64,000 nucleotides of DNA from Flectonema sp. DT1601. Lineage: Eukaryota; Euglenozoa; Diplonemea; Diplonemida; Diplonemidae. Location: positions 682,001 through 746,000 of the forward strand of contig OZ025787.1 in assembly GCA_964019425.1 (NCBI GenBank), read 5' to 3'. The stretch's first letter is position 1; each line of letters starts with the position of its first letter. The notes below the pieces were generated by a model, which was given only the letters and a program-made list of their open reading frames with translations, searched no databases and had not been told where the DNA came from. The translations under genes were made by a program, and so were the position numbers. Below are positions 1,620 through 64,000 of this stretch, piece after piece.

Positions 1620-2390
1620 CTAATCCACAGGGACAGGGGAAAAGTTCGATTGTCGTCCCGACGCGCAACTTGGTGACAACGGTGGAGACCAATCGTGGAT
1701 TTCGGAAGTAGAAGGGATGCTAACTCGGGAAACAGAGGAGGGGTGGGCCCCTCGAGACCCACAACTTGGAGATATCGGTGGTGACCAATCATGAACACCA
1801 GTTGTCGGAGTGACACTACATTGGGGAGGTGTGGATGAGTTGTCGGATCGTAGAGTGTGTATTTGATCACGCAAAGCGAAGCATTCCGTTGAGGGTAAGA
1901 ATTGACCAAAGTGGGAAGTAATTGGTGAAAGTGGTGGAGAGTAAGGGGTGAGCGGATTAGACAGCAGGACACTGTTTTCCCCAAATTGAGAACTCACACA
2001 AACGAGAGGACTATTAACCTCAACCAACAATGGGTTCGGTTCTAATGTTTCACCATAGCAAACTGGCCACCACTCCCCCAGCTCGTCCTGGGTAAAATTG
2101 CGACGCTGCGTTGAGTGCGTCTTGTGAGCTTTGTCGCAAAGGGCCTGGAGAATAGCAAAACGATTTTTAGCGTGTTTGGCATCCCTACAGTACTCTGACC
2201 AGTAACCGTACAAAGCCGTAGAATCTAAGAGTCTATTAGTTAATCTTTTATTTCGATAATTTCGTTGATTGATATCAACAGCCAACCAATTCTGCCTTCG
2301 TCCCATGTCACGAATTTCTCTCCTGACATCTGTCCTACTTTGCAAACAGTCAGGTTTCTTCTCATTCCATTTTAATATTGCGTAGTCGCG
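1620..2390 (-). other. Cytoplasmic Ser/Pro-rich tail with a 32-residue duplication
   Basis: After a basic helical segment the tail becomes Ser/Pro-rich. HDWSPPISPSC and HDWSPPLSPSC are 32 residues (96 nt) apart (DNA near 1667 and 1763), and a weaker PYSPPLSPIT lies upstream. SP/PP clusters are likely docking or proline-directed phosphorylation sites (inferred). Confidence 0.7.
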
Positions 2391-5300
2391 TATTTCTTGA
2401 CAACTCATGTTGCCGTCACCGTCTTTGTCCACAACCGCATAGATTTCCTTCAGGACCTCTCTGACTATGTTTATCACAAATGTGAGCAACACGATGACAT
2501 TTATTGCTAATATAAAATATGTCAGCAGATCTTCCTCCATCTTACTTAAGTCAGCAAAGTAAAACAATCCTAAATTAAGAGTCGTCATAATACAAACAAG
2601 AGAGAGGCTCTCCAACTTCCAAAGAACAACAAACTTAAAAGGACGTAGAAGCACATTCAGAGATAAGAAGAACGCTATTGTCCACATGGCAGCCCACATC
2701 TGGTATTCAGCATTTCTAGCGAGGAAAACGACTATGAATACAATAAGCATTTTCCTTATCATAATAATCATCTCCCAGTACCACCTCTTTAATCTGTATC
2801 CAGAGTATAAAAACCCTAACGTTGACATAACTTCTTTCGTACAAAGGGCATCTAAATTCCGATACAACAATGCAAGTCCCGCCAATGGTAGTCCAAATCC
2901 GTACAGGAAGAAGAAGAAGAATGATAACGTGCGGTACGTCTTGTATTTCGACTCTTCACAATCAATACTTGGATCTTCCTCAAGAAAGCGATGGCAGCGT
3001 TCCAGATCAACACAAACAGCGTCTGTGCATGTCAGCATCATGGCTAATTCTTTCATCAGGGAGGGATATATCAAGAAAATTATAACTAAAACAGTTACGG
3101 TATACACATCCATCGAACGTAAACCAACCGTCCCGCCTTCTTCTGCAAGCGGTGATAGCTTCGCGCGGGGCTTAAGTCGGATGTGGTTTGCTGCTTCGCC
3201 ATGCGAGTGAATCCCCTTATCACAAGCCTCACAGTAAAACTTATCGTGGTGAGCACAGTACCAGACAGCAAAGTCTTTGTTACAAAGATCGCACATCTCA
3301 GTTACGATTAAGTGCTTGTCTTGGTTTATGAGACGTTTCATTCGCTTTTTATCAGCCTCAAGGCGGGTCTGTAAATCCTCTTCAGTTTCGTGACTCTGTC
3401 CGATGAATGATCCCATCCCGGACTGATATCGAAGAGAGTCGTCTCTTAGTGGAATTGGAGTCTGACTTGGCACAGATGATGGTACTTGTGATCTCGTCTC
3501 TTGACTCGTTGCTGTTTCTGACATAACTGTTAAGCGAAGTTGGATTTCACTGTCTGTGAATCCCATTTGTTTCCACTTCAAGTACTTATCAGCTATCCTT
3601 CTCATTCTTGAAGCGGCGTATAATTGTTCGTATGAAAGGGTTCGAGCGAGAGTCTCAATTCCGTAAGCTGCTGTTATCCCATCAGCTGATGGCAGCGCCA
3701 CCATCTTTGGTCTCGCTCTACCAAATTCACCTCTGACGTAGTTAGAAAAGAACTCCGCAAACATCCATCTGGGAATGTCATTTGAAGGTGACAGAATATC
3801 AGAAGACTGCCTACCTTGATAAGGAGTAATATGAACCAACTCTGGTGCACGCGTAGGTGACCTGGGGGGTGTCAACGGAGCTGTACTGGTATTCCAGATT
3901 TTTATAGTTCTGCTAACTGCATCTATCTTCTCAATTGTCCAGACTCCGTCAGTTTTTACAGCTTTCAAGTAATCACTTGTTCTCCCAGAAAAGGATTGCT
4001 GCATTGACATGGTGCTGTGTTCCGCCAGAGCCTTTTCCCGCTTTACTGAGATGCTCAGATTAAGTGACGGATCGTACACGTCGCCTGTTGAATCAAAAAA
4101 GACTTCCCAGACGATGCCATGATCAGAACGCTCTACAAAATCTGAATCTCGAAAGTCAAAATGTTCGTGGTGCTTGACGGGGTACGGCGGGTAAACCGCA
4201 CAAGCAAGACGAGTTAAGTAAGAACCTCTCCCATCCATCGTTTCACCATCGTGTTCCTCAAGGATATCTTCGATAACTTCATCTTCCTCCATGTTATCAA
4301 TTTCGTATGTGATGATGTCTTTCTGTTGAGTGGCAGCGGATTCCCCCCGCTTTTTTTCTTTGTCCCTACTCGCTGGTAAGAAGCAATCGTGGAGTAGGAC
4401 ATCCAAGTCTTCTCTTGTTGGAAGGATTCCCCTATCTGTGTACGGTAATTTTATTGCTGTGAGTAGTTTGAATCTGGCAATGCAAGCCTCCAGTAATTCG
4501 TCTCTGAATAGAGCAAGAATTCTGTTATTGTTCAGCTCATGCTCAGGATGGTCACAAGTGATCCACTGGTTCATAACTAATTCTTGCAACTGGTCTTGCA
4601 CTCCAACACAACCAACTCCGGGAGTTGGGAAGAGTTGTTCGAGTATACAGCAGTGTTCACATAACCAGCAGCCGTGCTTGCCCAGTGTAAAACGAGCCTC
4701 AAATCGAGGTTCTCCAAACTCATCTCTTGCTTCTATTCGATAAGGTGAGTACTCTGTTTTAACAGTTGAATCTGGTTCACTCAAATCGGCCAGCGTCTTG
4801 AAAACGTTGTCTTTTGGGCTGGCTAATTCCCTCATTTGGATTGCTATTGTTTTTTCTCCATGTGAAAGTGAACTGTGCTCGTACAGTACAGCCCTCAAAT
4901 CCTTTCTGTCTCGTTCATTAACACACCAATCGTACATCCAGTGATAAGGTGACTGACACTCACATGCTGCTTCTTCAAATTCTTCTTTCATATCAACTTT
5001 TATCGATGCCTGAGTCAGTAGCTTCTTTAGAGCGAGGATCACACCTGGTACTACTATCACACAAACTGGAGCCTGTTGGAATTTATTTGAACATGCGTCA
5101 GCATAAATGAAAAAAGAAATCCCCTAATTCTTGCAAAAGGTAAGCGAGGAGGATAGGCAGCCTGGTAAAAATAGAACTCACATACCAGCATCCACGCATT
5201 GAACTTGTTGTAGTGATCCAGATTGTCGACTACACATTGAAGAGAAACAACTTTTGAAGTTGGCCCCGTTTTTATTTCCCCATCAAGGAATGATTGCATC

Positions 5301-8300
5301 GCTTCTCCCCAACGTACACTGAAGTCACCAGCGAGTGCACTAACATGAAGATGGTTCATAAACATTTTAATCATCACAGATGCGACAGGTGTTTCCTTCA
5401 CAGTCGAACCAAAATTAATATTCACCGCCACTAGAATGAGGACAATGATAATCAGTGCCAAGCATATGATTGCGATCATTATATAATTTGTCAAAACGGG
5501 ATAACATGCAACACATTCATCACCATTCTTTCCATAACCGTCTGGTGCAATGAGAGTACTTTCACGAGAACACAGAGAACAAAATGGTCCAGTGTGTCCT
5601 TCATTGCATTGTGTTTCAGATCTGATAGAGTCAGGGATGTTGATATCACCGAGTGGTGCAGCTTGACAACCAGCTTCACACTCGTGTGATTTGTATGTCA
5701 CTGGTTCCCTCCAATAACCTGCCTTGTTTACTAATATTGTCCCTCCATTACATTGTAACCCTGCTTCACACTCACCACACTGAGTCAAACAGAAGTAAGG
5801 ATCTGCAGAGGAGACGCCCACCAACGCCTGGCCACCTACAGGGTTTCTAGGCCCGAATAATACTTCGCCTAATAGGTGATTCCAGCAACCGTATTCAAAT
5901 GAATAAGCAAACTGGTTACAACCTGCTTCTATTGAAGTTGAAGTACAGCAATTCTTTGGAATGACTGTCGTGGACACAGAGGATGCCGCATTGATGGCTA
6001 ATTGAGACGACAAGTAGTCAGCACTTTGAGTATCTGCTGAGAACGATAACTTACACGACATTCCGTTCCAAACTTTAAATCTCCTTAACGTGAATCGAAT
6101 TAGAGTTGAGGAGCCACTCTCAAATGTGCTGTGTGACATAAAGCCAACCTCAGTCTGAGAGAGTACATAACTGCATGCCATATTTTCTAACTCCAATCTT
6201 CGATTTACGTCTTCCCAGTTTTCACCCCTCCTTGCGTAAAGAGCCGGCGATGTTTTCGGGTCACGTAGTTCTTTCACTTCTTTATCTAGCCTTACGTAGA
6301 ATGTCACACCTGACTCCGCCTCTACTTCACTTCCCTTGAGAACATTTCCAGCAAAGTCAAGAACCTGCACTATGTACTCAATAGTCTCAGAAAGATAATT
6401 TGTGACATCAGTTTTCGGCTCTGCCGCCCATCCCAAGTGGTGGGCTGATCCAACTGTCACATGAAACCTGTTTGTTAGTTTGTTTTGCTGAACTTGTAAA
6501 CTACTTCTCTCTTTGTTAAGTAGAAACATACTGTTGAATATGACGATATCCAAAAGCTGATCCAACTGCACACTTCCACGAATCGACGTATGGTAGCTGT
6601 TTATTGGCAAAGTTTAAAGTTGCGGAAAAAGTAATTCAACCGAAATAGTAAGAAGCAAACAAATAACATACTCCTCCGTAAAACGAATCGAGGCCAACGC
6701 AATTGTCGCGATTGGTGCAGGGACCAGCACATGACGGAAGCAAATCGAGAGAAGTTGAGATGTCGATTACTTGAATACCGTAGTCTCTAGCTCTAGGAGC
6801 ATGCAGGTAGAAAGTAATGTTGGCAGTACCATTGTGAATCATTGCTGAATCACCATCGGGGAATTCAACGCATTCGTTGGTAACATTCAGGCAGTTGTGA
6901 TGTTGTAGAATGAGAGGGCCATCCCAGTGGTTGCTGTCGGTAGTACTTCCTTCGATAAAAATCTTCACTCTTCTGTCTGTTTCAATATATCTGTTTAACA
7001 AATCATTTCCAACAACGTCTTTAATAGTAATTATAACAACAACAGGACCAACCCTCACATCAGATCTTAACGTTGAAGGAATTCGAGCAGTGCTGCCGGT
7101 AATTCCGAGCTGCGCAGCCTTCCCAACCTGACTTGGTCCTAAGACTGGTTCAACTTCACCAAGACCAGCGTTGCAGTTATTCGAGCTGAGGCAGTTTGAT
7201 GCCACAGCCACCGTAGTTGTTGCAGCGCTGCTCAGTACACCCTGGACACTGGCACTACCGGTGTTCTGCAAAACTTCAACCTGCCGTGCAGCTGCCCCCG
7301 TGCACGGTGACGAGTCCAGTCTTTTTCCACTATCACAGCAGCTTCTTCGATCCGCCAGATTATAACTTGGGAACAAGTTCTCGCACATATATTGACAAGT
7401 TGGTAAGATTGTACTAACAGAACAGGGGTCTCTGAGGACAGCGGGTACTTCACATGAAGTAGAACTACCGTTAACGTAAAAATTGTAACCGATACGGAGG
7501 CGTTCATCCGAGTACCCACTCAAAGCAAATGTCAGATAGTCGCCATAAATAATGAGATGCTTACCATAGGCAGTAGTCCCTTCGTTCTGTCCGAACGAAG
7601 GCGGATCGAATTCACAAATCTTACTACCAACACAGCCAGAAACACATCTGGAAGTCTCAATTGGGTTAGGCAGCGATAATGGAGCAATGTTGTAGTCGTA
7701 TCGATCAAGGGCAGTGCCGTAGAATTCGAATGTCACATCATACGACTCACCGAACTGCGCCCAAATGGACATCTGAGAACCCGTCGTACTGCTCTCTCCG
7801 TAGGTTGCAATACCAAAAGCGTTGAATTTAGGATCGTACCTTTGGCGTAATATCTTTGCCTGTGGTGACACATCTAACAGCCCTGGTGTATTCCACAAAC
7901 AGAAATTAACGCCGTCCTCTAATAGCGAACTGAACTGTTGACTGCTGCTACTTTGGACACCCCACATACCACTATCTCCCAAACGAGGGCATCCTGTCGC
8001 CAACTGCGCGCAATTTGCGACGTCTCTGATGCATCTTGGCCATGGGGATATAGACTTAATTCTAACGTATATGTCATGATTACTAGTAAAGTCACTCACA
8101 GGATTATCACTAATATCTAACATTATGAAAGAAGGCTGAGTCGTCAACGGTTCTTCCCTTGTCAGAGTTCGTGTAGGGATGCTTCCACGGAATCGAACCT
8201 TATTAGGAAGTCCCTCAATAATTTTAATGGTCACCTCAGCCGGCTTGATAGCAGAACCAACAGGAACGATTCGAAGGTTGTAGCGCCCAGCTGTTGGATA

Positions 8301-11300
8301 TTTCATTCTGATGATGGGATAGGTTCCAATATTGCTGTAGAATGTGAGGATTTGAGCCTGACGAGCAGTACTACCTCCGACTTCTAACAGGGGTGATATT
8401 CTCTCATTTTTAATGGAAGCGAGTTTAATGCTTGTTGAATTCAAGACGACTTCTACTCTGACTGTGGTACTGCTCGGGTTGATCTTTTCGAAACTGTTCT
8501 CATTTTGTAGTAGCGTTTCGTAGTCGGCTACCCACGCTCCTCTCCATCCGTAGACACCCGTACTTTCATCAACTAAAGCTACCCGAAGAGAAAAGTCTTT
8601 ATCTTCAGGATTTAATACTTCGAGCTTCCTGACAATGTCTGAGTGTTTCCATTCCTTCTCAACATCAGTCCAGAATTTCCCTCCTGCGAGTGTGACCCAC
8701 TCTGAGCTTCGCAATAGCGATCCCTCATTCAGAACTGACCTGGCAAGATGTAGTACAGAATAGTTAAAAACTTCATGTCGAGTCTGATCATGGAGGTAGT
8801 CATTAGAAGTTAGTCTCCTGATACCGAGAGCTTCTTTAGAATCTAATTCAACAAGTTGAGCTCTGTAGGTTTCTTCAGAAAGAGCTTTGGTGTAAGGTGA
8901 AAATTCTTTTCGATGAGGAGGTAGAAAAACTTCAGTATTCCACATGCGTATTTGAGTTGGGGGTCCGACGTAGCGGTGGTAGTAATCAATTTTAACAAGA
9001 GATTCGTTGAATGCCTGAACACCTTCTAGTTCTCGACAGTTCGCGTTATCTGAAGCATCTCCTCCAGAAGTGAAACATCTCAATGCTGGTGACACCAAAT
9101 TCATCTGAGGCCGACTGCGAACTTCTGCAGGAGGAAGATCGCATTCCAAAGTGCAACTGTCAATGAATGCCGCCTTCACCATTGAAACCAGGGATCGATC
9201 TTCACGGTTTTCCGTTGCCTTGCGAAACACGCAATAATATTGTCCAATAGGTTTATTAGTGTCGGAAACATTATAGAATTCCCATCCCTTTATTGTTAAA
9301 GGAACTGATGTTGTAGCAGGTTGTTCTTCAGGTTCAATCCAAGACAGTCTTCTAGAACCAACATAACTGTAACTACAGTCAGATATTGTCATTCGATGTT
9401 TTTTAGTCATTAATGAGATTGGTTCAGATCCTCGTGTTTGAACTGTAAATATCAGCCAGAAGAACATCTTCTGTAATGTATAAGGAGTGGTACTTCTATC
9501 AACCTTGTACTGCAAACCTCTACCACCTCCTCCTGAAGTGGAGGTGATAGTCAGGCGATCAAACTGATGAAGGATGAGGCTGCTGAGTACTGACGTTCCA
9601 AACTCTAACACCAGCTGATATTTTAAAAAGTGAATCTCACTATCAGTGTTTATTTCTGCTGTGACGTAGTACTGTTCATCATCATCTTCAATAGTGTTTC
9701 CTGCCCTGTCCATCAACTTGAATACTGGTTGTGTTCTGAGAGGGTTCCTGTTGTCACTGTAAGTCGAAGGTCTTGTTGCAAACTCCAGCGAAAATGGATC
9801 ACCTCCCGAAACATGAACGTGAATGGAGTCGACGAGTTGTTTAAATGAGAACGTCAGAGAGTAAACACCTTCCTTGGGAGTTTCAAAAGGGATAAATGAA
9901 TACGTGGCAGTACCGTTTTCAATAACAGCAGGTTCTATCGATCGCGGAGTGAAGCGGATGTTGCTGTCAATTCGCTCCCAAAGCCCAGTTACGTATGGTG
10001 ACGGGTCTGCTGGCCAAATATCACCCAAGACATTGTTGCGGATGTCTCGCAAGGTGAGATCGACACGGGGGAGGTGTTCACCAGAGCGGATTTTAACGAG
10101 TTTCCCACCATCACGACATTCTGTGCGTCTTTTGCCACAGATGACGAGAGCTTGCAATGACTTTGCAGGACCGACAGAGTTATAAGTTGTCACAGTACCA
10201 ACGATGTCGGAATATATCTGACCGTCCATTGTCAACTCAACTGTGGAAGTGAAAGGAACATCATGCGCCGGTTGTAAGCAGAGAGCCTTCATCGCTGTTA
10301 AGAACGTACCGTGAGATTCCACACCGTTAATACGACACCTCATAGTACTCGTTTTTAGAAAACCTGACCCTGACACTGTAATAACTACGTCAGAGAATGA
10401 TGGTCCATAACACCCTCCAGTTTCCCTCCGAACAATTATCGCCTCATTGTGATCACCCTTCTCGTAGAATGTTTCTGGTCCAGCTATAGACACCGTATCG
10501 GATATGGACTTCGACTTCCTGTCGAAGTGAGTGATGATGTGGTCCGTCGGATATTCCCCTTCCTCAACATGTGGGAATACCCAACTTCCAAATGTTGTTT
10601 TTGCTCCCAGATGAAGTATTGTTGGTGTTGATATGAAGCTCGCTTCGAGTCCTGATTCTGTCCAGCGGCCACGGTCATCAGCAGAAAGCTCTATTTTCAG
10701 TGATTGACAAGGGATGTATGTTACTGGTTCTCCTGTTGTACAGGCTACTGTTGTTAGAACTCCAGTTGATAGATATGTGCATGTAGTTGATTGTGTTTCC
10801 CCAATGATCATGATTGGCTTTGAGTTACTCTTATCAGGGAATCCGTAACCAGTAAGCTCCACTACTGTTCTTGCTTTCTGAGCATCCACAAATGTTGGTG
10901 TAACAGAAACAATATCGTACATATTCGCTACGAGTATTGCTACTCCATACTCTTCATTACTCACAGCAATGAATGCTGCTCTTCTGAACTGGTCAACTTC
11001 AATGCCGACGCAGATGCAATTTCTGGTCGTCTTGTCTTCTGACAGAACTCTAGTTGAAAGGGTTTCAAACTTAGAGATTGTGAGTAATATCAGAACAGAT
11101 CCCGTGGATTTTGTTCCGATCGAGAGATAGAGATTTCCCAAGGACTCATCAACACCGACTGCAGTAACTGTTGTTGTGAGGTGTGAGCCTTTAATTCGTT
11201 TCCAAGAATTGGTGGTAGTCAACTGTTTCTTTAGCTGAGAGCTGTCGAGTCTGTAGACGATGTAATGCTCAGGGTGTAAGATGGATGACAAGATTCTAAT

Positions 11301-53300: not shown

Positions 53301-56300
53301 CACAGCATACCCACTAAAGAATATGTGCACCCCACCGGCTCCAGGGGGAATAACGAGGGAAGGCGACGCCGCGTAGCTCGACGAGCTGATTTCTCTCGAA
53401 CCCGACAGCGTCAAGTGACTACCAGCCACATGCTGAGGTACCTCCCCAACCCCGTCGCTGTAGCTGTTGAAATCCTCAGAAACCAAACCGACAGGAATCA
53501 GATCGCTTCCGTCGTACGAAAACACGACAGAAGTCACCCAAATGTGTTCATCAGCATCGGGGATGCTGGGCGTGGTCAGGGAAACGAAGTCTACGTCAGT
53601 CTCAGTGACAAACTCGTAGCAGTAGAACGACTCCGCAGCCGAACAACGGTTTGCGATGGAAGGGGAAGCAGTCTCCACAACAACACCCTTGTTCCTCAGT
53701 GTTACCGATATTGTGCGCAACGGAGCCCCTCCCTGCTCCAGCGACGCAAACTGAATGCGAATTCCCCTCGTGGAACGAAAGGAGAACGAGATGCCAACCT
53801 CCGCATCAGACGGGAGTTCCCAGCCTCTGCGAGTCACAACAGCACCGCTCGCCACATCGAACAGCGCATAGCAATCAGATACAACGCTGGATACTCCGAT
53901 CGCTCCAATTGAATTTACCATGTACTTCAGATTATCAAATGTGGTGTGGTCAAAGTCTGATTCGAAAGGCAGTGTCAATCTCCCCTGCGGGATCACAATC
54001 GAGCCGTCGAACGAGTAAAACACGTCGTCGACGAAAATCGTCCCGACAGTCGGGACAGTGAGAATCAGCTTGTCGAACCCTGAACCCACCCAAGTGTGCG
54101 CGTACTTCGAATTCAAACCTGATTCGAACAGGGTGATTGTTTCCGAAAGTAGAACAGAGTCCTTCCGCATTCCCTCAATCGCAACCACGATATCCGTGTC
54201 CGACCAGATCGTTACGCGAAAGTTTGAAACCGGCATGAAATCAAACGACATTTCCTTCCGCGTGAAAGGCTCGATCTTCCAAGACTGAGTGTTCAATCCA
54301 GTGTCACTTCCGATAACTTCCGTATGATCGCCAAGACGGTTGATGTACTGCCCGACAAAGTCTGTCGACTCGAACGTCGTGCCGTCTACCAAGTCAAAAT
54401 TGAGCATCTTCACACCATCGGTCAGTTCCATGCCCCCCTCATCAAATGAGAACCAGATCGTATTGAGGTGCATGTTACCAGTTTCTTCGTTAGCACCAGT
54501 GATGCGAACCTTGTCAGCTGTACCCACCACGAAGGTGGAGCAATACCAAGAACCTTCGCCAGTCACGCAAGGTACATCAATTGTTGGAGTAATTACTTCA
54601 GTTGATGATTGAAGAAAAGTTCGTAGTCGAATCTGAGTTATAAATGGAACTGAAACAGTCACGCGGAAATGCTGAATTACTAAAGAAAGAGAAAAGTCAT
54701 CGATTGGAAGCCCAAATTCCAATTGAAAACCCGTCATGATTGATGACTCCCACTCATTAAAAAGATCGCCGTTGGATACGATCCTCGTCGGACCGATTGC
54801 GTGCACAAAGTGGCTCTCGCTGAACTGCGTACTCGTGAATGAACTCAATCCGTTGAAATCCAATTTATATGGATTGTCAGTGGGGTTCACAGAAGTACCG
54901 TCGAACGTGAAGACGACATCGTCAATGTAGATCTCGTCTCCGGAGGATACCGTGACAGCATCGGCACCGGTCCCAGTCAACTCGACACAGTAGACGTCAG
55001 TTGCGGTCCCAGCATTGCACGCACAACAAGCTTCATTGGCAGTATAAACATTTCTATAATATTGACCATCAGATTCACATATTCCAGGTTCACTATATGA
55101 ATTACAGTTTTCACCACGGATATCTTCCCATTGGTTTCCAGAAGCAAATTTTAAGTCTGAGCAAGTGACAGAAGGAGGCTTGATAACAGAACTACCTCCA
55201 CAAATAAAAGCATCTGCTTCAGTAACATTTCCTATTGCGATAAGAGTTCCATCGTTTTCAATCTCATAGGTGGCGACAAATGAAGCAGAAAAAGATATGA
55301 TGTAAAGTCTAAATGACATTGGCATGAACATGGTTTGAAAATAAAATGAACTTCCAGAAGTAACAACGACAGAATCAGAATTGTCCCATGAGTAGCCTGA
55401 GAGAGTAGAACCCCAATAATATATAAATTGTGGTTGGTAGGCTGAAGATGATTCAATTCTCGTAAAAGACGCAAACTGCCTCCCAACAAGAACTGCAGAT
55501 CCTCCATCAAAGGTGTAAAATATATCACCAATATGTAGATCTCCCTTATTAGAAAGAATTTCTATTTCGTCAAAAACATCGTCAGCAGATGAGACGTACG
55601 TGTCACACACAAAACCATTGCATGGAATGGCAGCAGTAAAGGTTCGTTGTTGTTTTTGTCGTTTTTTATATTTATTGAAAATTGTGTATTGACAATTATC
55701 TAAAGACGCACAGGATACCGTTAGACGAAGAGAGGTCACTAAGAAACTTCTAAATGATAAAACTGATGATTGTCCCTCAGAAATAGAAAGAGAGCTGCGA
55801 GAGTTGTAGTCTTCAGTAATATCACGAGAACCCGACACTAACACGTGAGAGTCATGAATAGCAGTGTTGGGAATTGTATTAGGTCCCAGTTCGTAGTCTT
55901 TAAAATCAATAGTGTACAACCCTAACGGGATAATATTTGAACCGTCAAAGGAGAATGATATATCAATAATCATTATTGATGAATCAGTTGTTACGATTTC
56001 AATAAAACTGACTGATGACAAGTCAGTATCAACAAACTCATTACAATAGTGAGAAGTCGAACACTCGAGTGATATTGTTATTAAAGTCTCAACAGAACTA
56101 TAACGGATTAGAACTGACGATGATTTGATTGTTGACGAGAATTGAATTCGAATTCCTGAGATGTCAAGAAATGAAAAACTAATAACATTAATCTCATCTG
56201 ACAGCAACAACCATCCCATTTCAGTTGCAGTAGCAGTCTCAACGATTCCTCCAGAGAGAGATTCAGATCCAATGACGTCAATCAAAAACGAGTTGTAAAA

Positions 56301-59300
56301 ACTTCGATAATCGAAATTGCCATCAGAAAAAGATAGTTTCAACATACCACTCGGAACAATCGGACTATCAATTTCATCGTGTGAAAAAGTAATTTTATTT
56401 ACGTAAATATTCTGATCTCCAATAGGCTGAATTACTATCCTATCAAACGATTCTTTAATTCGAATAGTAGCGGCAAATAGAAAACCAAATATTGTTGAAT
56501 TCCTTGAGACGAGTTTAACGTCAATAGTTTTATCAGATTCTGATAATTTGAATAAAACAATAAGTTTAACATCTATTGCAGATTCTCCCCAAATGGTCAT
56601 TCTAATATCTTTAAATTCTAAGTATGAAAATGATAATACTTTTGAACTAGAAATCAACCAGCTGTTCGAAGACGCTGCTCCTTCTAATAAAGTTACCGTC
56701 TCTAAACCATCCCCTAGTGAGTTGACATACTGCTCCTTGAAATCATTTTTCTGGAAGGAACTGAGACCCTCAAAATCAATAGCATGCGGAGAGTCACTAG
56801 GAAGTCTCAAAGAATTATCAAACGAATAAAACAGGTCATCGACGTACAGTACAGGTGATACTTCACTATTTGAGGATATTGTCACTTCATTCATACCAAT
56901 TTCATATTCGTATGGAGTTACGTAACTCGACAGGACGAATGTTGCACAGAAGCCAATCCAGTCAAAGAAACCAACATCACAAGGGACTTCAAGTGTTTTA
57001 TGTTCAAAAACTGGATTTAGAACATCATAAGGACGTCTAATTCCTGAGACACTTACGTCTGCGAAGAAGTTGCTAGCGACAGTAAGACGGACTCTTCTCA
57101 CGTACATCCGAGAAGATGGAAGAGGACTTGAGAGACCGAATACAATACTACCACCTGTGAAGGTCCAAGAGTTCGTACCATCATATCGACCAGTCTCACC
57201 GATAGCGATAGTGGTTGGAGATATCGTTAGTAAGACTCCCAATAGATAATCATTTTTAAAGATATCATTATTAAAGTCAACTCTGTAAACACCTGCAATC
57301 CAATTGATCGAATTATCTCCGAACGATATGATCACATCATCGACGTAAATAGAAGAAACATCTACAGTCACAGACACCTCATCAAATACTGTATTAGATA
57401 TGTGTGCAATTGAGCAGAACACTTCATGTAGAGAACCTCCACCACAATCACAGCAAACTTCTGTTGCAATATAAATATTTCTTTTTGACTCGTCATCTCC
57501 TTGAGTGACGCATCTGTTTATAAAAGAGTACCAATGGCAATCGTTACCTGATGAGTCAACCCAGTCAGGATCTAAGTCTGTGCATGTTTGTCCATTCGTA
57601 TTACAGATGTAGCCGGTTGTTTCATCGACTTCAACCTCTGATACGAGACTTTGTTCTAAGTACGTTCTGATAGTTGCGTTGTATGAATTCATTAACGATC
57701 CGATTGTAAATCTGATACTTCTCGCAGGGAATAATGGTATTAATGTTAACATACTCGAATTAGAAACAAAAAGAGAAAATGAATTATCAAACGACTGCTC
57801 CTGTACCGAAGAACCTTCCCAAGAGTACAAGAAGTCTTGTATGTAAGAATGTTTATTATCCGTGGAGATGTCATCGAATGTATACAAATAACTCTGAGTA
57901 AATCTAAGAGAAGTCTCATCAAAAGAGTACGAAATATAATCAATATAAGCACCCTCACTGAAGTACTCGACTTCAATACGATCTGATAGTGTATTCTCCC
58001 TAGAGAAGAATGCACAATACTGCTCGTTTACTTTAGGACCAGAATGCTGATCTACATAAAGTAATTCATGATCTCTTAAGAGCATCGTAATAAAAACTGA
58101 TTGGTCTACTCCGCAGACTCTAAATTGAATATTAGTAATAATGTTGTTGTAGAACCATAATAATAATTTATTCCCTTCAGTTGGTATCAATAATGCTGGT
58201 GAGTCATCGTTTCCTAACACTATGTCTGTTGATCCTTTGATGAAAAGAGGAGAGACTTGTGAGTTCGAGAACTCGCCTACACCAACACCGAATTGGTTAA
58301 AGTCTTCTTCTAAGACACCAATTGGGACTATCGTCATGTTGGAATCAAATGTGTACGACATTTCAGTCAGTAGAATAGTTCCCAGGGAAAGAATAGTATT
58401 GATAGTGAGTGATGTGAAGACCTCATCATTTTGATAAAGAAGTTCAGAGCAATAACGAGAAGGAGTTACTGAGCAGGGTATATTAATTAACAGTCGAATA
58501 CTAACATTTGTATTACTAAAGTGATTTAGAATCACATCTACTTCTGTAATCTCATCAGCTGTGAATTGCATTTGAAGACCAGAAACCTCTTTGAAAGAGA
58601 ACGCAATACTGGTAGTCCCCAGGGCTGTAACATCCCATCCATAAACTGGTACCACAACACCGTTCATCACATCCAACACGTTGTGTGCGAATGTTCTCGA
58701 ATTCGAAGACGGAGGTGAAGCTCCAAAGTGATTTATAAGATATGAGTCTGTACTGAAAAGTGTGTTTCCAAAACTCTCTTCGACATCGGCAAATGAAATT
58801 GTCAGAATTCCAGTTGGGACAACACTTGAACTATCATATGAGAATGAAAATTCATCGATAAAGAAATCAGACTGGGAATCGAACTGGAGAAACTCGAAAT
58901 TTTCCTCAAGCTCGAGTTGGAAACCAAACATACCAAACATTGGTTTCGGTGTCATAATTGTGGACTCTGACTGTGAACCTTCCGTTGCTATGATTGTGAT
59001 GGGATTTTGTTCTTCACTCCAAATTGTGATTCGGAAGTTGGTAACTGACAGCCAACTAAATGAGATTGTTTCATTTCTTATTTTCCACATCACCGTTCCA
59101 ATAGTCGGGTGAACTTCTAAGGAATCTCTCGCTCCCAGTTTGCTGATAAAATAATTATCGCTGTAAACATTTGGAGGAAATGGACTTTCGAGATCTTCAA
59201 AATTCACATGAAATGTACCCACGGTAGATCCAACATCAACTGACTTAAAACTATAACTGAGATCATCTAAATAAAAGTAATCCACGTCACCAGATATTCT

Positions 59301-62300
59301 GGTGATCGAAATCTGTTCAACGTTTTTGATTGAAATCCTTGCGCAATATCTATCACTGAACTTAAGCACATCACAAACAGAGGATGTTGCTAATTGCTGT
59401 TCTGGATATGTGCTGGCCCCTATCTGTCCAGATAAACTTAACTGCAAAGGAACTGAAGATGAAATGATTGCGGTCACATATCTGGCAGCCATTAGGACGT
59501 TTTTTCCACTTGCAACTTGACCAAACTTAATCGAAAATCCCACACTGGAATTCCAAGCCACTGATCCATGATAACCTTCTCCCGTGTCCTGAGGACCTTC
59601 TCCTAACTGAAGGATAAAGTTGTCACTGAAGGCATCGGAGTCAAATGTTTTTCCTCCAAAATCGTTGAAATCGATAAAATATCTTTCTGAAGGGTTCACT
59701 GAACTACCATCAAAAGAATAAATAAAATTATCAATCGATAAATGCTTCTGAGGTGACTGCTGAATTATGAACAACTCCTGCACACTTTCACTAACAGAGA
59801 TATCAATACAGTAAACTGTTCGAGTAGTACCTCCATTGCAAGAACAACAAGCTTCAGAAGCTGTGAATGAGTTGCGATACTCATCAGAGTTTCGAACCAA
59901 ACAAAGTTCTGAGTTGTACATATCACAGTTCATTCCAACGGAGTCTACCCAGGTTGTGTTATCGTTGTTTGTTAAATCTGAACATTCAATTAAAGTATTC
60001 TTTACAACAGAACTCCATCCACACTCATAACTATCTTCTGATGATGAATACACTCTTGGTGTCATCGTGGAATGATCATCTGCTGAGATATTAACAAAGA
60101 AAGGAATCTCAGGACTGGACACAACAAATTGCATTGCAGTAATAGGAATGAAGATCATCTTTATATCACCATCCACTGTCGAGTCAATTCCAACTGACTT
60201 CGTATTATCAAACGAGTAGTTTGATAAGTATGGAATCCAATTAAAAACTATTCCATTCTCAAAGTTGGGATTTTTTTCATCGAAATCCAATTCAAGTTTT
60301 CCAGTCGGAACTACCTCAGTAATAAAGTCAAAGCTGTACACCAAATTACTAACGACTGCCGTCCCATTTGGCGACGATATTATTATTTTATCTATTCCGT
60401 GATTCAATTCCTTATGTGAGAATGCATAAGTGTGACAGCGCATTGAAGCCGCTTTTGAACACCAAACTGTAGGCGTTATTGATGAATTAGCGTGCGGGTA
60501 ATCTTTAAAATATGAAAAAACAGTAAAACTTGTTCCCGTCGTTGACACAGTAAACCGAATAGAAGAAACAGTGTAATCATTAAATGTAATAATAGTCCTA
60601 CTTCCTGTTGATATGTGTAATCCAAGTGAATCATCGTAAGTAGCGGCTATGGATCTTGATTCGGTAAATTGAATAGTGTTCTTATTAATTAATGTGTTTG
60701 GTAAGATACCCTCCACGTGATGTTCGTTAAAATCAAATGAAAACAACCCAACTGGAACAATATCACTGCCAGTGTAAGAGAACCAAACACCCGTCACAAA
60801 AACCTTTGATGTCGTAGTGATTCGCAGCATGGTCACTCCAGGAATTCCACTCACTAGTAGTTCACCACAATAATGTGATGAAAAACATGCTGTAACAACT
60901 GGTACTACTACAGAGTAAGTCGCATAATGAACTGTGACACTCGCACCTCCCTCTGTTGAGGACAGGGCTATCTTAAATCCAGTGATGTCAATAAAATTAA
61001 ATGAAATTACATTCAGATTAGAATCACTCAACTGCCAACCCTTATCAGTTGGGGTAGCTTGTTGAACAGTTCCACCTGTTAATAAGAATTCTTCTAATTC
61101 ACCGATGATGTTAATGGCAAAGTTTTCATAGAAGATTCCGCTACTAAACAAACCTACTTCATTAAACTTGATATGAAGTAGTCCAACAGGAAGGACATCT
61201 GATCCATCAAACGAATAATGAAAATTACTAACGTACACAAGGACTTCAGGGGAGATTCTAATAGCGTCAAACAGATATCCATTCGCTTGTAGAGTGTAAG
61301 CATAGTTAGGTCCGTCAAATACATCGTTATCCTATTTAAGTAGTTGCGTTTTCTTTTTTTTTTTTTTTTTTTTTTGTAACTGAACAATGTAAGAAATAAA
61401 ACCATACCCGCTCAATAAGATTCACTGTGACGCTGTACACTTCGATAGTTCCTTGCATCATAGAAAAGGAAACAGCAACAGCTGCATCTGCCCAAAGGGT
61501 TATTCGAAAATTAGAAACCATCATATAACAAAAGGATATCACTGTAGGTGATTGGACTGACCACACGCCTCCCTTGTTTCCTTGGTTACTAACCATTTCA
61601 GATTCAGAACCGATGCTACATAAATAATTATGAAAGAAGTCAAACTGTTGGTCTCCTAATCGTGAGATGGCGAATTCAACTGACAGATGACCATCAGGAA
61701 GAACAAGTGAATCATCAAATGAATAAGACACGTCATGAACGTAAACCGATCCTATTCCGTTAGTATGAAATCCAACAGATTCAACTGCATCAGAAATAAT
61801 AATCGTCGCACACTCACCACCTTCAGGATGATCAATAGAACAGAGTGCTCGAAATGATATCAAATCATTAAAGGTTTTGGTATTTGGACGTGATTGAATC
61901 CATTTCCCTAAATATAATGCAGCCACTGATAAGCTTCTTACAGTTAACCTAACTCTTCTTGCAATCCACGGTACTTGAATATAGAAAGAAGCATCCTTGA
62001 CTGATATACCAAAGTTTATAACACCACTTTGTGTTACCCAAGCATTAGTTCCATCTGCTGCTATTCCGAGTTCGAATGATGAATCAAAGAGAACATACGA
62101 GTCTACGAGAGATGAATAGACTAAGGAGGAAGGCATTCCTTTGAATCTTAAAAAAACTGCATCCACTGGAGGACCATTTTGTGGAATAAAATTATACACC
62201 ATATTATCAACGTAGATGATATCATTTGATGTTATTCTTATCTCAGGTAATGATTTAGATAAGACAGTTATCGAAACACAGTAGACGTTTGGACTACTTC

Positions 62301-64000
62301 CTGCTCCGCAATCACAACAGGCTTCAGTTGCGATGTACGTTTTTCGATTAGATTCTTCTAATCCTTCAATAAAACATTGATTATTATCTAAATAGTAATA
62401 ACAATCATCACCGTGAATATCCTTCCAAGGTTCGTCTCCATCTCTTAAGTCAGAACATGGAACGTATTTGGGTTTCGTAACAATGAAACCTCCGCAGACG
62501 AATGAATCTGTTTCCGTATATAAATTAGATTCAAATTCGAAAGAGAATGATTTATTGAATGAGAAGACAACAAACGATAAATCAGAAATATATCCATATT
62601 TTGGAAGTATTAAAACATCAGTACCTTCAGTAGAAAAACTATACTCATCCACGGCGTATGAAAACGGCGCGACCGTTCCCATCTTTTTGACGATGTTTTG
62701 TTCGTCAAAAACAGTCGACGGATTGAATTCTAAGAATTGACGATAAGCGACAATTGGATTACTTCCATCAAATGAGAAAGTAATTTCTTCAACAAACCAC
62801 GGCCCACCAACAGCTTTAATTGTGAAACTTGTAATCTCATTTGGGTTATCAACACTCAAGTATGAAACTCCTTCTCCGATATTTGATTCGCAATCTGATG
62901 ATGACCACGATTGTTGAGATATTACTTTACCGCGGAAAAGTGTAGTCAAATCAAAAGTAGAAAACGGACTGACAGTTGTGGCGTAGAATCTCAGGTTACT
63001 TACAGGTGCACTAATCGGACCAAAAGTAAACTGAACAGTCTCACCGTCAGCTATCAACAACGAAAGGGTTCCCGTTGCTTCAGATGCTTCAATCCTACAG
63101 CTACTGACGAAGATCTTCCCACCATCAACAGGCTCTTCAACATTAGAACCCGATGCGAGTTCTTGCCCTTCTTCGTAAGAAGTAAAAACAACAGTTTGAA
63201 GACCCGAAGGTCTTAAAACTGTATCATCAAAGGTATAGTACATCTCACTGAGCACAACTGTTTCTGTTGACTCCAATGTAAAGTAAGTAATTCCAACGGA
63301 TATGTAAAGTTCTGCACAATAAAAGCCTCCAGAACTTCCACAAGTACTAAGAAGATCTATTTGGTGGACTACTGTTTCAGAATCATCACTGTAAGCAGTT
63401 AGTGTCACAAAGGACTCAACTGTGCTCACTAGAACGATGAAAAGCTCTTTGATGGAAATAAAATTAAACGACACCCCTGAAACTATTGTTGGAGGCAATT
63501 CCCAACCAAATAAATTATCGAAAACAGCAACAACATTCTGAGGAACTCCAACTTTACCAACAGAGAATATCATGTGACTGTTATAAAAGTCTTTTGGATC
63601 AAAGCTACCCACTTCAGTAAATAATAATCGTTGAATTCCATTAGAAACTACCGAGGGAACGGTAAACGAGTATTTCAAACTATCAACAAATACAGTACCT
63701 GACTCCACAGACATTGTTAACCAGGTGATGTCATCAGTTAGATATGCGTAGTAAAACAAGTTGGGGGCCCACTTGGCTTGATGAAGAACAAAGTTTTCAT
63801 TATTCACTATAACTGTTGCTGGTGATGTGCTTGTGAAGATTACTCGCAGATTCAGTACAGTCAGATATGAAAAGCAGATGTCGTACTCTTCCTCACCTCC
63901 GAGTTTCCACTTACCATCTAAAATAACCCCACCTGATGAGGCTATTGCAAACTGATTAATGTAGTCGGAGTTGAAATTATTTGGAGGCGGGCCGTCAGGC
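1620..64000 (-). CDS. Giant multidomain surface protein with TRP-like membrane domain (5' end missing)
   Basis: Join on the minus strand: >64000-61408, 61331-6672, 6565-5186, 5072-1620. The parts encode 864, 18,220, 460 and 1,150 codons, at least 20,694 residues. The frame is open at base 64000, so the start codon and any signal peptide lie outside the window. Methionines near 63807, 61238, 6610 and 5060 are not real starts, because the frames run on upstream to the edge or to splice acceptors. Domain order is: about 70 beta-rich repeats, a cysteine-module mosaic, EGF/laminin modules with probable propellers, a TIG/filamin-like stalk, a cysteine-rich juxtamembrane domain, a multi-pass TRP-like module with a B-box in a loop, an EF-hand and a Ser/Pro tail ending SPVPVD. 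This resembles the giant EGF/TIG/TRP-like membrane proteins known from protists. A role in surface adhesion, ligand or force sensing is inferred. Unity of the gene rests on splice signals and domain continuity, not transcripts. Confidence 0.88.
2395..2430 (-). other. EF-hand calcium-binding loop
   Basis: DKDGDGNMSCQE is a canonical 12-residue EF loop: acidic D1, D3 and D5, G6, and E12. It follows the last helix after EVLKEIYAVV and precedes RDYAILKW, so a helix-loop-helix is credible. Only one EF-hand is seen. It suggests calcium feedback on the membrane module. Confidence 0.85.
3160..3315 (-). other. B-box-type zinc finger in the membrane-module loop
   Basis: The ligand pattern is CDLCNKDFAVWYCAHHDKFY, then CEAC, then HSHGEAANH. 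It fits the B-box (C-x2-C...C...C-x2-C...H...H), with all ligands apparently present. B-boxes are intracellular protein-interaction modules in known proteins. Its presence puts this loop in the cytosol and suggests a signalling partner there. Confidence 0.75.
5073..5185 (-). other. Intron 3 (113 nt, phase 0), splits transmembrane helix 2
   Basis: The donor is GCG TGG ATG CTG|GTATGTGAG and the acceptor is TTCCAACAG|GCT CCA GTT. They join YNKFNAWML to APVCVIVVPGVILAL, which makes a continuous hydrophobic helix across the junction. A CTGAC branch-point-like sequence lies about 30 nt before the acceptor. Read-through would give about 42 foreign codons and then stop just inside the next exon. Confidence 0.9.
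5495..6565 (-). other. Juxtamembrane beta domain and cysteine-rich domain
   Basis: The first part continues filamin-like strands (YIVQVLDFAGNVLKGSEVE). The second (5495-5960) is cysteine-rich: CGECEAGLQCNGGT, NKAGYWREP, ECEAGC and CNEGHTGPFCSLC. GYWR followed by GHxGPxCxxC directly before the first helix is the usual layout in protist proteins with this TRP-like membrane domain. It is therefore the family-specific neck of the receptor. Confidence 0.65.
6566..6671 (-). other. Intron 2 (106 nt, phase 0)
   Basis: The donor is TAC GGA GGA|GTATGT and the preferred acceptor is GTGCAG|TTG GAT. They join DSFYGG to LDQLLDIVIF in phase 0, like the other two introns. The unspliced frame stops 12 codons past the donor. 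A second AG (AACAG, exon would start at 6596) lies 31 nt upstream but would shift the frame with this donor. The donor is therefore firmer than the acceptor. Confidence 0.75.
6672..10905 (-). other. TIG/IPT and filamin-like stalk
   Basis: TIG-like cores are VTPTF...VVELTGYGF (about 10.85 kb), GPSFSDVVITVSGSGF with CRINGVES (10.35 kb), PLTIKGWEF (9.3 kb) and PSFGQN...HLIIYGDYL (7.55 kb). Filamin-like cores carry TQPVFKLMDRAGNTI (9.7 kb), TTQPSFIMLDISDNPV (8.1 kb) and VVIITIKDVVGNDLL (7.05 kb), and an ENGTATYSFIPF strand lies at 9.9 kb. This is an immunoglobulin-like stalk that holds the ligand-binding parts away from the membrane. Intron 2 falls just after its last cysteine cluster (CAGPCTNRDNC). 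Confidence 0.65.
10905..12480 (-). other. Second propeller-like region
   Basis: Repeated short strand blocks such as GKYIYYIVNGS, FLAIVGVNHLKEFII, SIYGLILFIRI, VDESLGNLYLSIGT, and FIAVSNEEYGVAILVA are spaced at about 50-60 residues, as in beta-propeller blades. The region lies between an EGF rod and TIG domains, where propellers commonly sit. No family-specific motif was seen. Confidence 0.4.
12495..13375 (-). other. EGF/laminin-type cysteine array
   Basis: About seven modules carry repeated CxxGxxGxxC cores: CPEGFFGLFCERECSC, WAGENCDVCYRGKSGPSC, CDICKDGFYGDTC, CDRRYWGPNCIDECRC and CDIGWAGSQC. Alternating EGF and laminin-EGF spacing gives a stiff rod in known proteins. It sits between the DNRLRE-like domain and the second propeller-like region. 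Confidence 0.75.
13715..14385 (-). other. DNRLRE-like beta-sandwich
   Basis: The order of elements is IHFEVFEATG, then VALYHLQGE, LIWTKITEYT, KRILDVTSFF, LTVTLALREV and finally YTPRLTIRM. It follows the DNRLRE/CBM96-like plan (V.LY......W.E......W...DVT..V....L.L......RPxLxI). In bacteria and archaea these domains occur on carbohydrate-active surface proteins. A CENCKPGYYGHKC laminin-type EGF (14400-14560) comes just before it in the protein. Confidence 0.45.
14900..16800 (-). other. Probable beta-propeller with preceding beta-sandwich
   Basis: About six segments carry a hydrophobic readout strand preceded by a short turn: VGSLLYFLATTD, RWLLMMAEEKLD, DFVYFYYGNGKIGMQLYSW, NKLIMPLGDD and GLFTVMHRSGI. 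KTTD and similar phrases recall bacterial LYFxAxDGxxGxELWKTD blades. At 16.75-17.05 kb a segment reading VVTVDITDFINSF and NAELILERD looks like a DNRLRE-type beta-sandwich. Both calls are by eye. Confidence 0.4.
17640..18335 (-). other. EGF-like modules, second cluster
   Basis: The repeating core is CNGHGLC/CHGNGLC/CNGRGEC followed by CxCxPGYxxxxC. Examples are CCHGNGLCCAG, CKPGFTGQEC, PCNGRGECI, CYPGYSSSDC and CCNGHGLCDA. These are tenascin/EGF-2-type modules common in protist adhesion proteins. Confidence 0.65.
18340..21690 (-). other. Middle ectodomain, mostly unrecognised, with one EGF cluster
   Basis: Positions 20190-20580 hold EGF-like modules (CPDTCSGIG, CQCDPGFGG, CDCLGEWTGRTCDIC). 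On either side are long beta-rich, cysteine-poor stretches that I cannot assign. One of them includes VRVDLVIGFRFDISAPSLN at about 21.55 kb. A proline-rich piece (PPTPSPVSC) lies near 19.93 kb. The frame is open throughout and codon use matches the flanks. Confidence 0.45.
21690..22890 (-). other. Three apple-like CxxA/GC repeats
   Basis: Three segments share a core of (I/V)TSEExC..A.........Y..(P/F)..C. They lie near 22.8 kb (ITVTSEEQCRAYGTKHGK), 22.2 kb (ITITKSEECKKALCQTSD, then DYPRGCIASY) and 21.85 kb (VTSEAECRHAVCLLKGYS). This resembles an unassigned repeat frequent in dinoflagellate, haptophyte and oomycete surface proteins. The function is unknown. Confidence 0.45.
22916..22962 (-). 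other. Pro-Thr hinge
   Basis: This is a short low-complexity linker, PPTPVPTPAPTPGP. It separates the N-terminal cysteine mosaic from a set of apple-like repeats. Such hinges are typically extended and often glycosylated. Confidence 0.75.
23485..24700 (-). other. Three cysteine repeats flanking an inserted domain
   Basis: Three repeats have the form (D/N)C.G........LC...C.S.G..C followed by C..(F/Y).......CC. Their cores are LCQDACDSFGLTC, LCPSECKSAGYYC and LCTEECLSAGESC. The inserted beta domain (23785-24345) sits between the middle C-S-x-G-x-x-C part and its closing C..Y...CC, which suggests a domain captured inside a repeat. Confidence 0.55.
23785..24345 (-). other. Domain resembling a Bacteroidetes surface-protein module
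   Basis: The run has the order (Q)IVMAKEDL..AG.....ITSIGFYVTNL, then NYTITIGWTS, then FVTTTI, WTELELYSPVRWDGNLNLIV, and C.NRDTS. This is the layout of a beta-sandwich I know from type IX-secreted and other extracellular proteins of Bacteroidetes, whose members read ITSLxFxVTN, FTIKIGxTS, and WDGxSNLIVEVCF. It is unusual in a eukaryotic receptor and may be an old transfer. The match is by recollection and needs a profile search. Confidence 0.55.
25560..25765 (-). other. PAN/apple-like domain
   Basis: The order GRIAECLDYCQMDGGCVAFEVD followed by LSCTIYNN fits the apple core (C..C....C.aF......C.(l/i)y). In known proteins apple domains bind sugars or proteins. The outer disulfide is less clear, so the assignment is moderate. 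Confidence 0.5.
25905..26262 (-). other. Two C-x-C...NDRCLxGxCxG repeats
   Basis: Two copies share the layout C......C......G.C......(D/S)N..CDD......NDRCL.G.C(I/V)G. The closing phrases are TANDRCLSGECIG and TKNDRCLFGLCVG. The motif occurs in many protist extracellular proteins, and I know of no assigned function. Confidence 0.55.
26265..26725 (-). other. Ephrin-receptor-like (GCC2/GCC3) cysteine repeats
   Basis: Four short repeats of the form C.xC(P)xGxxSxxx......D..CxxVxC are present: CESCPEGTFSN, CTTCPPGEISEG, CTPCPSGTTSPGG and CVNCLSHQTSNPG. These match the tyrosine-kinase ephrin-receptor-like repeat that is common in large protist surface proteins. A Ser/Thr-rich spacer of about 150 residues (26750-27190) separates them from the EGF modules. 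Confidence 0.65.
27190..27665 (-). other. Three EGF-like modules, calcium-binding type
   Basis: Three consecutive modules begin LDECNSD, VDECEHT and LDECVTF, each with a ..C.D..C.D......G.(W/F)(Y/Q)C.CP core. The leading D-E-C is typical of calcium-binding EGF domains, although the usual hydroxylated Asn position is not clear. The third ends EGFTGIGRRSKAAC. Confidence 0.65.
27975..28085 (-). other. Lin-12/Notch-type repeat (LNR)
   Basis: HLSNGICDWNLRF followed by DPNYDGQDC is the usual LNR ending (CD......YDGxDC). In known proteins this small calcium-binding fold is held by three disulfides. It sits in a cysteine-rich linker (27690-28240: CSVDNSCELC, CKGCSSNCLSCW, CRLCYEDC) directly after the beta-repeat region. 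Confidence 0.6.
28300..37686 (-). repeat. Diverged super-repeats C-terminal to the array
   Basis: About 20 beta domains keep the YSFDG-type closing signature but are more degenerate than those upstream. Only one full cysteine module remains, at 32985-33170. At the expected site near 35.5 kb only a remnant (CSSQSSRPIAWC) is seen. The final domain closes with VDDLGFCMDGCDIFPT before the cysteine-rich mosaic begins. Confidence 0.8.
32985..33170 (-). other. Cysteine module, last diverged copy
   Basis: The layout is CINL..AWVDSVGRTCLTY...C...TAAEACCECSGG...GYC. It is about 4.84 kb, or two periods, from the nearest array module (37828), so one intermediate module has been lost. Confidence 0.7.
37687..54846 (-). 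repeat. Homogenised tandem array: seven super-repeat units (6 x 2454 bp, 1 x 2436 bp)
   Basis: Units start at 37687, 40141, 42595, 45049, 47503, 49957 and 52411 (plus-strand order). The first six are 2,454 bp (818 codons) and have identical translations. I found no base difference in the stretches I compared. The seventh is 2,436 bp and diverges from about 54463, with an unrelated-looking patch at 54580-54773. A further partial copy runs from 54847 to about 55030. Each unit holds five beta domains (about 160, 145, 165, 145 and 205 residues) and one cysteine module. The array is visibly richer in G and C than the coding sequence on either side. Both ends fall inside a domain, near the LDFN strand, not at a domain border. 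Confidence 0.95.
54847..55030 (-). repeat. Partial eighth copy at the array edge
   Basis: This stretch matches the array unit almost exactly from the KLDFN strand into the cysteine module. It has a few base changes (for example GATACC for GACACC near 54946, and a change giving TATDVYC for TAPDVYC). Identity then drops sharply after about 55030 into AT-rich diverged sequence with the same protein layout. It looks like the end of a conversion or duplication tract. Confidence 0.85.
54985..55175 (-). other. Cysteine module spanning the array edge
   Basis: The C-terminal half (ACCACNAGTATDVYC) is nearly identical in DNA to the array units. The N-terminal half (TCSDL...WEDIRGENCNSY) is in the diverged AT-rich style. 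The module therefore records the homogenisation boundary in its own middle. Confidence 0.75.
57412..57600 (-). other. Cysteine module, diverged copy 3
   Basis: The layout is TCTDL...DWVDSSGNDCHWY...C...IATEVCCDCGGG...VFC. It lies about 2.4 kb from its neighbours on both sides and has the same position within the five-domain unit. Confidence 0.7.
59808..59995 (-). other. Cysteine module, diverged copy 2
   Basis: It has the same layout as the copy at 62278: ECSDL...TWVDSVGMNCDMY...C...TASEACCSCNGG...VYC. It lies about 2.47 kb further along the gene, which sets the super-repeat period outside the homogenised array. Confidence 0.7.
61332..61407 (-). other. Intron 1 (76 nt, phase 0)
   Basis: The donor is GAG CGG|GTATGG and the acceptor is TTAAATAG|GAT AAC. 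Splicing joins VTVNLIER to DNDVFDGPNYAYTLQANG. This restores a beta repeat whose other copies have the same layout (SETITLFESGLNSKYAHTW, then FDKL, then VDDVFYSFDG). Without splicing the frame ends within about 20 codons in poly-lysine. The sense strand carries a run of 22 A (61354-61375) instead of a pyrimidine tract. CTACTTAAAT just before the acceptor may hold the branch point. Confidence 0.9.
62278..62470 (-). other. Cysteine module, diverged copy 1
   Basis: The pattern is CSDL...W.DIHGDDCYYY...C...ATEACCDCGAG...VYC, about 63 residues with seven or eight cysteines. The C-D-x-W-x-D-x-x-G-x-x-C...ACCxCGGG layout is one I know from secreted proteins of diatoms and other algae. It is inserted in the fifth domain of the super-repeat, just before the final YVDNMVYNF strand. 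Confidence 0.7.

Follow-up and report, generated by a model that had tools for sequence, protein, structure and literature searches.

A 64,000-nucleotide stretch of the genome of Flectonema sp. DT1601 (positions 682001-746000 of contig OZ025787.1, here C8, in an assembly of 89.5 Mb and 92 contigs), referred to below as the window, is filled on its minus strand by what is very probably one spliced gene encoding one membrane-anchored chain. In our corrected model this gene has five exons and four introns, and its 66-kb coding sequence specifies 22,030 residues (2.42 MDa) that run from a signal-like start through a stalk of tandem jelly-roll-like domains and a cysteine-rich stem to a neck and a membrane module. 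Its putative role, to which we give an even chance, would be that of a very long adhesion receptor. The original prediction, made from the letters of the window, had proposed a single gene with at least 20,694 residues; the single gene is upheld by the joined frames, the signal-like start and collinear homologues, and the in-window count becomes 20,683 (by subtraction). Coordinates are those of the window, continued rightward past its edge, and features lie on the minus strand unless stated otherwise.

Gene model

Four minus-strand stop-to-stop frames carry the coding sequence, at 1620-5123 (1167 aa), 5057-6613 (518 aa), 6636-61331 (18,231 aa) and 61336-63999 (887 aa, open rightward), which is where long frames had been predicted. 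From the local base composition, some 999 stops are expected in the 18,231 codons of the central frame (log10 P about -446), and the two other frames of the same stretch contain 874 and 1,540 stops. The predicted run of the gene off the right edge was borne out, as was the advice to look there for a start codon and signal peptide. Specifically, the exon 1 frame reaches 68043, with an ATG at 68040, 4 kb past the window and beside an upstream stop, and the N-terminus, MKLVKGWLDLRSSCSKVLVILLYCVNGCVS, appears signal-like by eye. Another frame ends upstream of this ATG. The corrected exons are thus 68040-61408, 61331-6672, 6596-6532, 6467-5186 and 5072-1620.

Exon 1 (61408..64000 within the window, 2,211 residues in total) is followed by intron 1 (61332..61407), a 76-nt phase 0 intron of the form GTATGG...AATAG with a long A tract, which was placed by internal repeat alignment. 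Across this join, residues 2000-2449 align with residues 3599-4059 at 31% identity (E 1.7e-49) with no gap at the junction, and a complete stalk domain (residues 2097-2237) spans it with an E value of 1.2e-30 against the stalk-domain hidden Markov model (HMM), in agreement with the earlier proposal that splicing from 61408 to 61331 restores a repeat. A homopolymer error in place of the intron is disfavoured, as both frames stop before the junction and the repeat alignment is ungapped there.

Exon 2 (6672..61331; 54,660 nt, 18,220 residues) encodes most of the stalk, the cysteine-rich, EGF-like stem and the TIG region. The single intron originally placed after it, at 6671-6566, had to be abandoned. 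All four paralogues read across this site (C36, C9, C14 and C35) are intronless there, and the paralogue segment LPYIDSFKC...RHIHNF (from C36) is present in the window gene solely as a 65-nt exon; the four proteins are matched only when two introns flank it. These are intron 2 (6597..6671; 75 nt, GTATGT...AACAG, phase 0) and intron 3 (6468..6531; 64 nt, GTATGT...AACAG, phase 2), on either side of micro-exon 3 (6532..6596; LPYVDSWKCAVGSAFGYRHIQ). Our first joined model of 22,041 residues, with a single middle intron, was accordingly replaced by that of 22,030; residues up to 20,431 are unaffected, and the cysteine counts, hydropathy, sequon, internal-alignment and fourfold-site figures given below and above use the 22,041-residue version.

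Exon 4 (5186..6467) carries the neck, a cysteine motif and the first membrane helix at about 5426-5482, and is separated by intron 4 (5073..5185; 113 nt, GTATGT...AACAG, phase 0) from exon 5 (1620..5072), which includes a large hydrophilic segment, membrane helices, an EF-hand-like motif, the tail and the stop codon. Intron 4 sits within a conserved helix, and once joined, the sequence matches both P0002 (EukProt transcriptome) and P0003 (the C35 locus of the same genome), so the predicted restoration of a membrane helix by joining 5186 to 5072 is confirmed by homologues. An interruption occurs at this position in C36 too and, in C9, no more than about 12 residues away; C14 and C35 have none. 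Of the three phase 0 GTATG introns first proposed, the GTATG donors and the first and last introns thus hold, whereas the number rises to four and one of them, intron 3, is in phase 2. The coding sequence also contains two in-frame GTATG..ACAG stretches, at residues 3745 and 18385, and 61 residues depend on them.

All four introns (76, 75, 64 and 113 nt) are GT-AG introns with a GTATG donor, and three end in CAG, intron 1 ending in TAG; these features match the Diplonemidae consensus. Passages of PMC12621601 describe a (G)/GTATG 5' splice site, a 3' end of CAG and median intron lengths of 41-107 nt across L. lanifica, D. japonicum and R. humris.

The stalk and its identical array

The stalk occupies 28398..64000 in the window, its first domains lying beyond the right edge. 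With an HMM built from the protein itself, 81 domain copies of about 150 residues each were found over residues 181-13,189 at E <0.01. A cysteine-rich insert marks larger blocks, recurring at intervals of 760-818 residues apart from one double interval of 1,614; a block of the array described below consists of five domains. An alignment of the stalk by pairs of domains lost register and was not used.

Within exon 2, at 37692..54463 (residues 4502-10091), lies an array of 6.83 copies of a 2,454-bp (818-aa) unit that are identical in DNA, the identity extending over 14.3 kb at a lag of 2,454. The blocks adjoining the array match its unit at 68% and 63% (array edges included), and other blocks at 21-29%. 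The array also stands apart in composition: GC content at fourfold sites is 57-59% within it, 37% in the 201 codons immediately preceding it, 24-31% in the stalk further out and 29-36% in the remaining gene. GC-biased conversion is a possible source of this shift. If the protein held one array copy alone, about 17,260 residues would be left (by subtraction).

On the plus strand, each array unit carries an antisense frame of 315 codons, seven in all, spanning 38241-53912; these are probably a by-product of the GC-rich repeat. Several Pfam matches to the array (DUF7317, LexA, PriCT and others) were rejected: some exceed the whole-protein cut-off because identical copies add up, and no single stretch passes. 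In form, the array recalls a dispersed repeat of about 20 kb in D. papillatum, described in passages of PMC10161547 as a tandem of approximately eight motifs of 2.5 kb, each bearing a frame of 283 residues that is apparently untranscribed; this likeness is one of description.

The fold predicted for the stalk domain appears nearest to those of carbohydrate-binding modules and adhesins. Pfam scans of the pieces of exon 2 gave no carbohydrate-binding or MAM-like family at E 0.1, and the best hit of a profile search of the PDB with the stalk was an unrelated chain at E 0.45.

Stem, membrane module and secretion

Below the stalk, a cysteine-rich stem with EGF-like segments (12465..28247, residues ~13,240-18,500) was delimited by cysteine counts. 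The EGF-like cysteine spacing was recognized by eye only, and the EGF/laminin family PF00053 scored 17.8 bits, below its cut-off of 21. An IPT/TIG domain at 10206..10406 is above threshold (PF01833, 25.4 bits, cut-off 20.9).

In exon 5, a B-box-like zinc motif (3183-3296; Pfam match below cut-off) lies in the large hydrophilic segment, membrane helices occupy 2442-3113, and an EF-hand-like motif (2385-2453; Pfam match likewise below cut-off) follows the last helix. By hydropathy, the membrane module has about seven clear hydrophobic helices, a count that is uncertain. With respect to adhesion G protein-coupled receptors, Pfam scans of six pieces outside exon 1 gave no 7tm or GAIN/GPS domain at E 0.1.

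Counting the array once, the ectodomain holds 44 NxS/T sequons versus 135 (standard deviation 10) in shuffled sequences, fewer than in any of 300 shuffles (minimum 109), and 121 instances of the reversed motif. The part that starts at the first membrane helix has 6 sequons versus 5.3 expected. The depletion would fit a secreted chain under selection to avoid unwanted glycosylation.

A candidate family of giant receptors

The genome has 37 stretches matching the exon 5 protein (P0001), counting its own. Of 30 candidates for a stalk match, 26 were scored, and matches among them were confined to C8, C36 and C9. C36 and C9 share with the window gene the stalk domains, the neck and the membrane module, the last at 44-45% identity, and both differ from it in lacking introns 2 and 3 and in having another interruption in the exon 4 part. 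C36 also has a signal-like start and a tandem array of its own. Its single frame of 26,712 codons, with a signal-like ATG at 630307 and a stop at 550171, is longer than that of the window gene, and we estimate the whole protein at about 27,800 residues with the downstream exons. The C36 array has a larger unit of 1,626 residues (period 4,878 nt) in five equal-scoring copies, in frame. C9 is shorter, with a frame of 13,139 residues. Stalk and neck fall within one open frame in both the window gene and C36.

The membrane module also occurs in P0002, C35, C14 and C84, joined in the first three by a collinear neck. No stalk match was found in C35, C14 or C84, and C14 and C35 lack the last intron. 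P0002, assembled to 2,013 residues, shows 33% identity across 86% of exon 5 and continues through the neck; like P0003, it is collinear with the tail of exon 2 and the parts encoded by exons 4 and 5. As P0002 comes from a transcriptome, the membrane module is transcribed in some relative.

Taken together, these genes suggest, at what we judge to be even odds, a diplonemid family of giant surface receptors (at least three here, of ~14,000 by estimate, 22,030 and ~27,800 residues by estimate) whose stalks of domains resembling carbohydrate-binding modules are lengthened and homogenized in frame by block exchange or GC-biased conversion. An open frame of 21,670 residues with a TIG domain was also seen on C18 near 817363, with the membrane module not among its listed matches; it is possibly another giant gene of different make-up.

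Genomic setting

Judged by its sequence, the window gene is a nuclear gene of a diplonemid. The 20-base motif ACAGTTTCTGTACTWTATTG, the 3' part of the diplonemid/kinetoplastid spliced leader, has 727 matches in the genome at no more than 1 mismatch, and its reversed control has 0; the end of this motif is common to kinetoplastids. A leader sequence read at three loci, CCAACGATTCTAAAGCTACAGTTTCTGTACTTTATTG, is of diplonemid type by comparison with the D. papillatum leader. The dinoflagellate leader gave 0 genome matches at up to 2 mismatches, and a dinoflagellate origin was rejected. Among the matches listed, the spacing of the spliced-leader motif is often about 610-623 bp, and on C16 and C20 this 610-623-bp spacing persists for about 14 kb and for at least 38 kb, respectively; these rows are probably large arrays of spliced-leader RNA genes.

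Over 184 kb, 33 of 34 closed frames of at least 300 codons lie on the minus strand, a count that includes the giant gene's own four frames and excludes the antisense frames of the array. One-way gene arrays are described for D. papillatum in passages of PMC10161547. A neighbouring gene at 72897-75749 has the look of a receptor, with two cyclase-like domains recognized by eye only.

Weighing the interpretations

In the mechanism that we propose, the protein would be made as one chain that enters the secretory pathway and forms a cell-surface filament, with some 81 jelly-roll domains carried on a stem of cysteine-rich, EGF-like and TIG parts and a length of a few hundred nanometres if each domain contributes about 4 nm. 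Because their predicted fold is nearest to carbohydrate-binding and adhesin modules, the stalk domains would probably bind glycans or other surfaces, and contact or tension on the filament could then be relayed by way of the neck to the membrane module with its zinc-motif and EF-hand-like parts. The stalk may grow and shrink by unequal exchange or conversion of five-domain, 818-residue blocks, a process that would account for the identity of the seven copies and perhaps for their higher GC content.

A number of observations weigh against this proposal. The gene model is drawn from genome sequence, and a hydropathy scan did not flag the signal-like start, and it gave weak peaks within exon 1 (1.7-1.97, at residues 247-274, 608-626 and 1519-1545). 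The stalk comparison, which concerns fold only, ties with many jelly rolls, including esterase, reelin and binary-toxin receptor-binding domains, and its Foldseek TM-scores are low (0.24-0.42, query-normalised). Relatives of the stalk were absent from the 7,625 candidates compared with a 2,242-residue piece, and among 8,000 scored against an 818-residue alignment only P0004, the same array in another deposit, was found; both searches cover proteins of 0.55-1.75 times the query length. In the membrane module, the Pfam matches to TRP, B-box and EF-hand families each fall below cut-off, and the structure prediction was unusable (pLDDT 40).

P0004 bears on whether the array is partly a product of assembly, such that the copy number differs or indels end the frame, leaving a shorter protein or a gene broken in some alleles. 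In that deposit, held at ENA, the array frame is broken: three members of 841-residue frames lie on one 406-kb contig, and P0004 matches the array unit over 830 residues and starts in a shifted frame. Either that assembly contains indels in a difficult repeat or the array is not intact everywhere, and the copy number and exact protein length are consequently provisional. The identity of the copies over 14.3 kb would suit an assembly product as well. Yet all copies are open in the present assembly, the array of C36 behaves alike, with its 4,878-nt period inside a 26,712-codon frame, indicating that long in-frame arrays recur, and some 17,260 residues would remain even with a single copy; we regard a partly artefactual array as rather unlikely. 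Far more improbable is that the frames represent several adjacent genes whose separate proteins happen to follow one another on the same strand of a polycistronic cluster. Given the unidirectional arrays of diplonemids (passages of PMC10161547), same-strand neighbouring frames alone prove nothing, but here there is homology at each junction, P0002 and the paralogues are fused across the exon 2 tail, exon 4 and exon 5 parts, and an ATG and a signal-like peptide open the first frame.

In terms of function, the protein could instead be a structural filament of the coat or glycocalyx, with the membrane module merely its anchor rather than part of a signalling receptor. Such a filament would be in keeping with a repetitive jelly-roll stalk and with the giant coat-like or adhesive proteins proposed in Omnitrophota (passages of PMC10066038). 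We consider it doubtful, since the module has many helices and a long conserved hydrophilic segment, is 44-45% identical between giant paralogues, and recurs as related stretches at many further genomic loci, which suggests more than anchoring. Also unlikely is a mechanosensor in the form of a TRP-like ion channel that opens when force acts on the stalk. The EF-hand-like motif after the last helix and weak PF06011 matches in three of five proteins (21.3-22.1 bits in P0001, C36 and C9) point towards it, but these scores are below the 28.5-bit cut-off, P0002 and C14 have no TRP match at E 0.05, and the module offers no usable structure. An adhesion receptor, a structural coat and a force-gated channel are not well separated by the present data.

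Little molecular detail appears to be available on how diplonemids meet prey. If the receptor family proposed here is real, its members would rank with the longest single-chain membrane receptors known, affording the cell a reach for contact with prey or surfaces that is tunable and several hundred nanometres long. If the window protein is made as one chain, the surface filament of a unicellular eukaryote would be built to that length from a single 2.4-MDa polypeptide, raising questions of how a 66-kb coding sequence in one-way gene arrays is spliced and translated and its product secreted. The gene would also clearly exemplify the amplification of blocks in frame together with a local shift in GC content, and automated annotation could easily split or lose genes of such size. 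Diplonemids are described as abundant in the ocean in passages of PMC12621601.

Comparison with known systems

Titin and PKZILLA-1 are, like the window protein, giant single chains of eukaryotes; both are larger than its 22,030 residues, titin being a sarcomere protein and PKZILLA-1 a polyketide synthase. A receptor of TIG/EGF type with a polytopic membrane module is a known protist type, with which the window protein shares a TIG domain above cut-off; its EGF/laminin match is below cut-off. The CBM27, 29 and 61, MAM and gingipain cleaved-adhesin domains are 6-13% identical to the stalk domains, with no Pfam family match. In the open-licence literature, top-ranked search results and term look-ups in parts of PMC12697944 yielded no description of giant proteins or receptors in diplonemids, and parts of PMC11573180 place Euglenozoa among the phyla with a higher share of huge proteins. 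The original claim that the protein would be among the largest known is fair, although it is no record, as an Omnitrophota protein of 39,678 residues is reported in passages of PMC10066038. The same passages supply the nearest parallel, namely giant surface proteins with tens of thousands of residues, membrane helices and adhesion-like parts encoded by one gene; these are bacterial, and the likeness is one of description. We would group the window protein with giant adhesive surface proteins, here in the form of a spliced eukaryotic gene family with a homogenized jelly-roll stalk.
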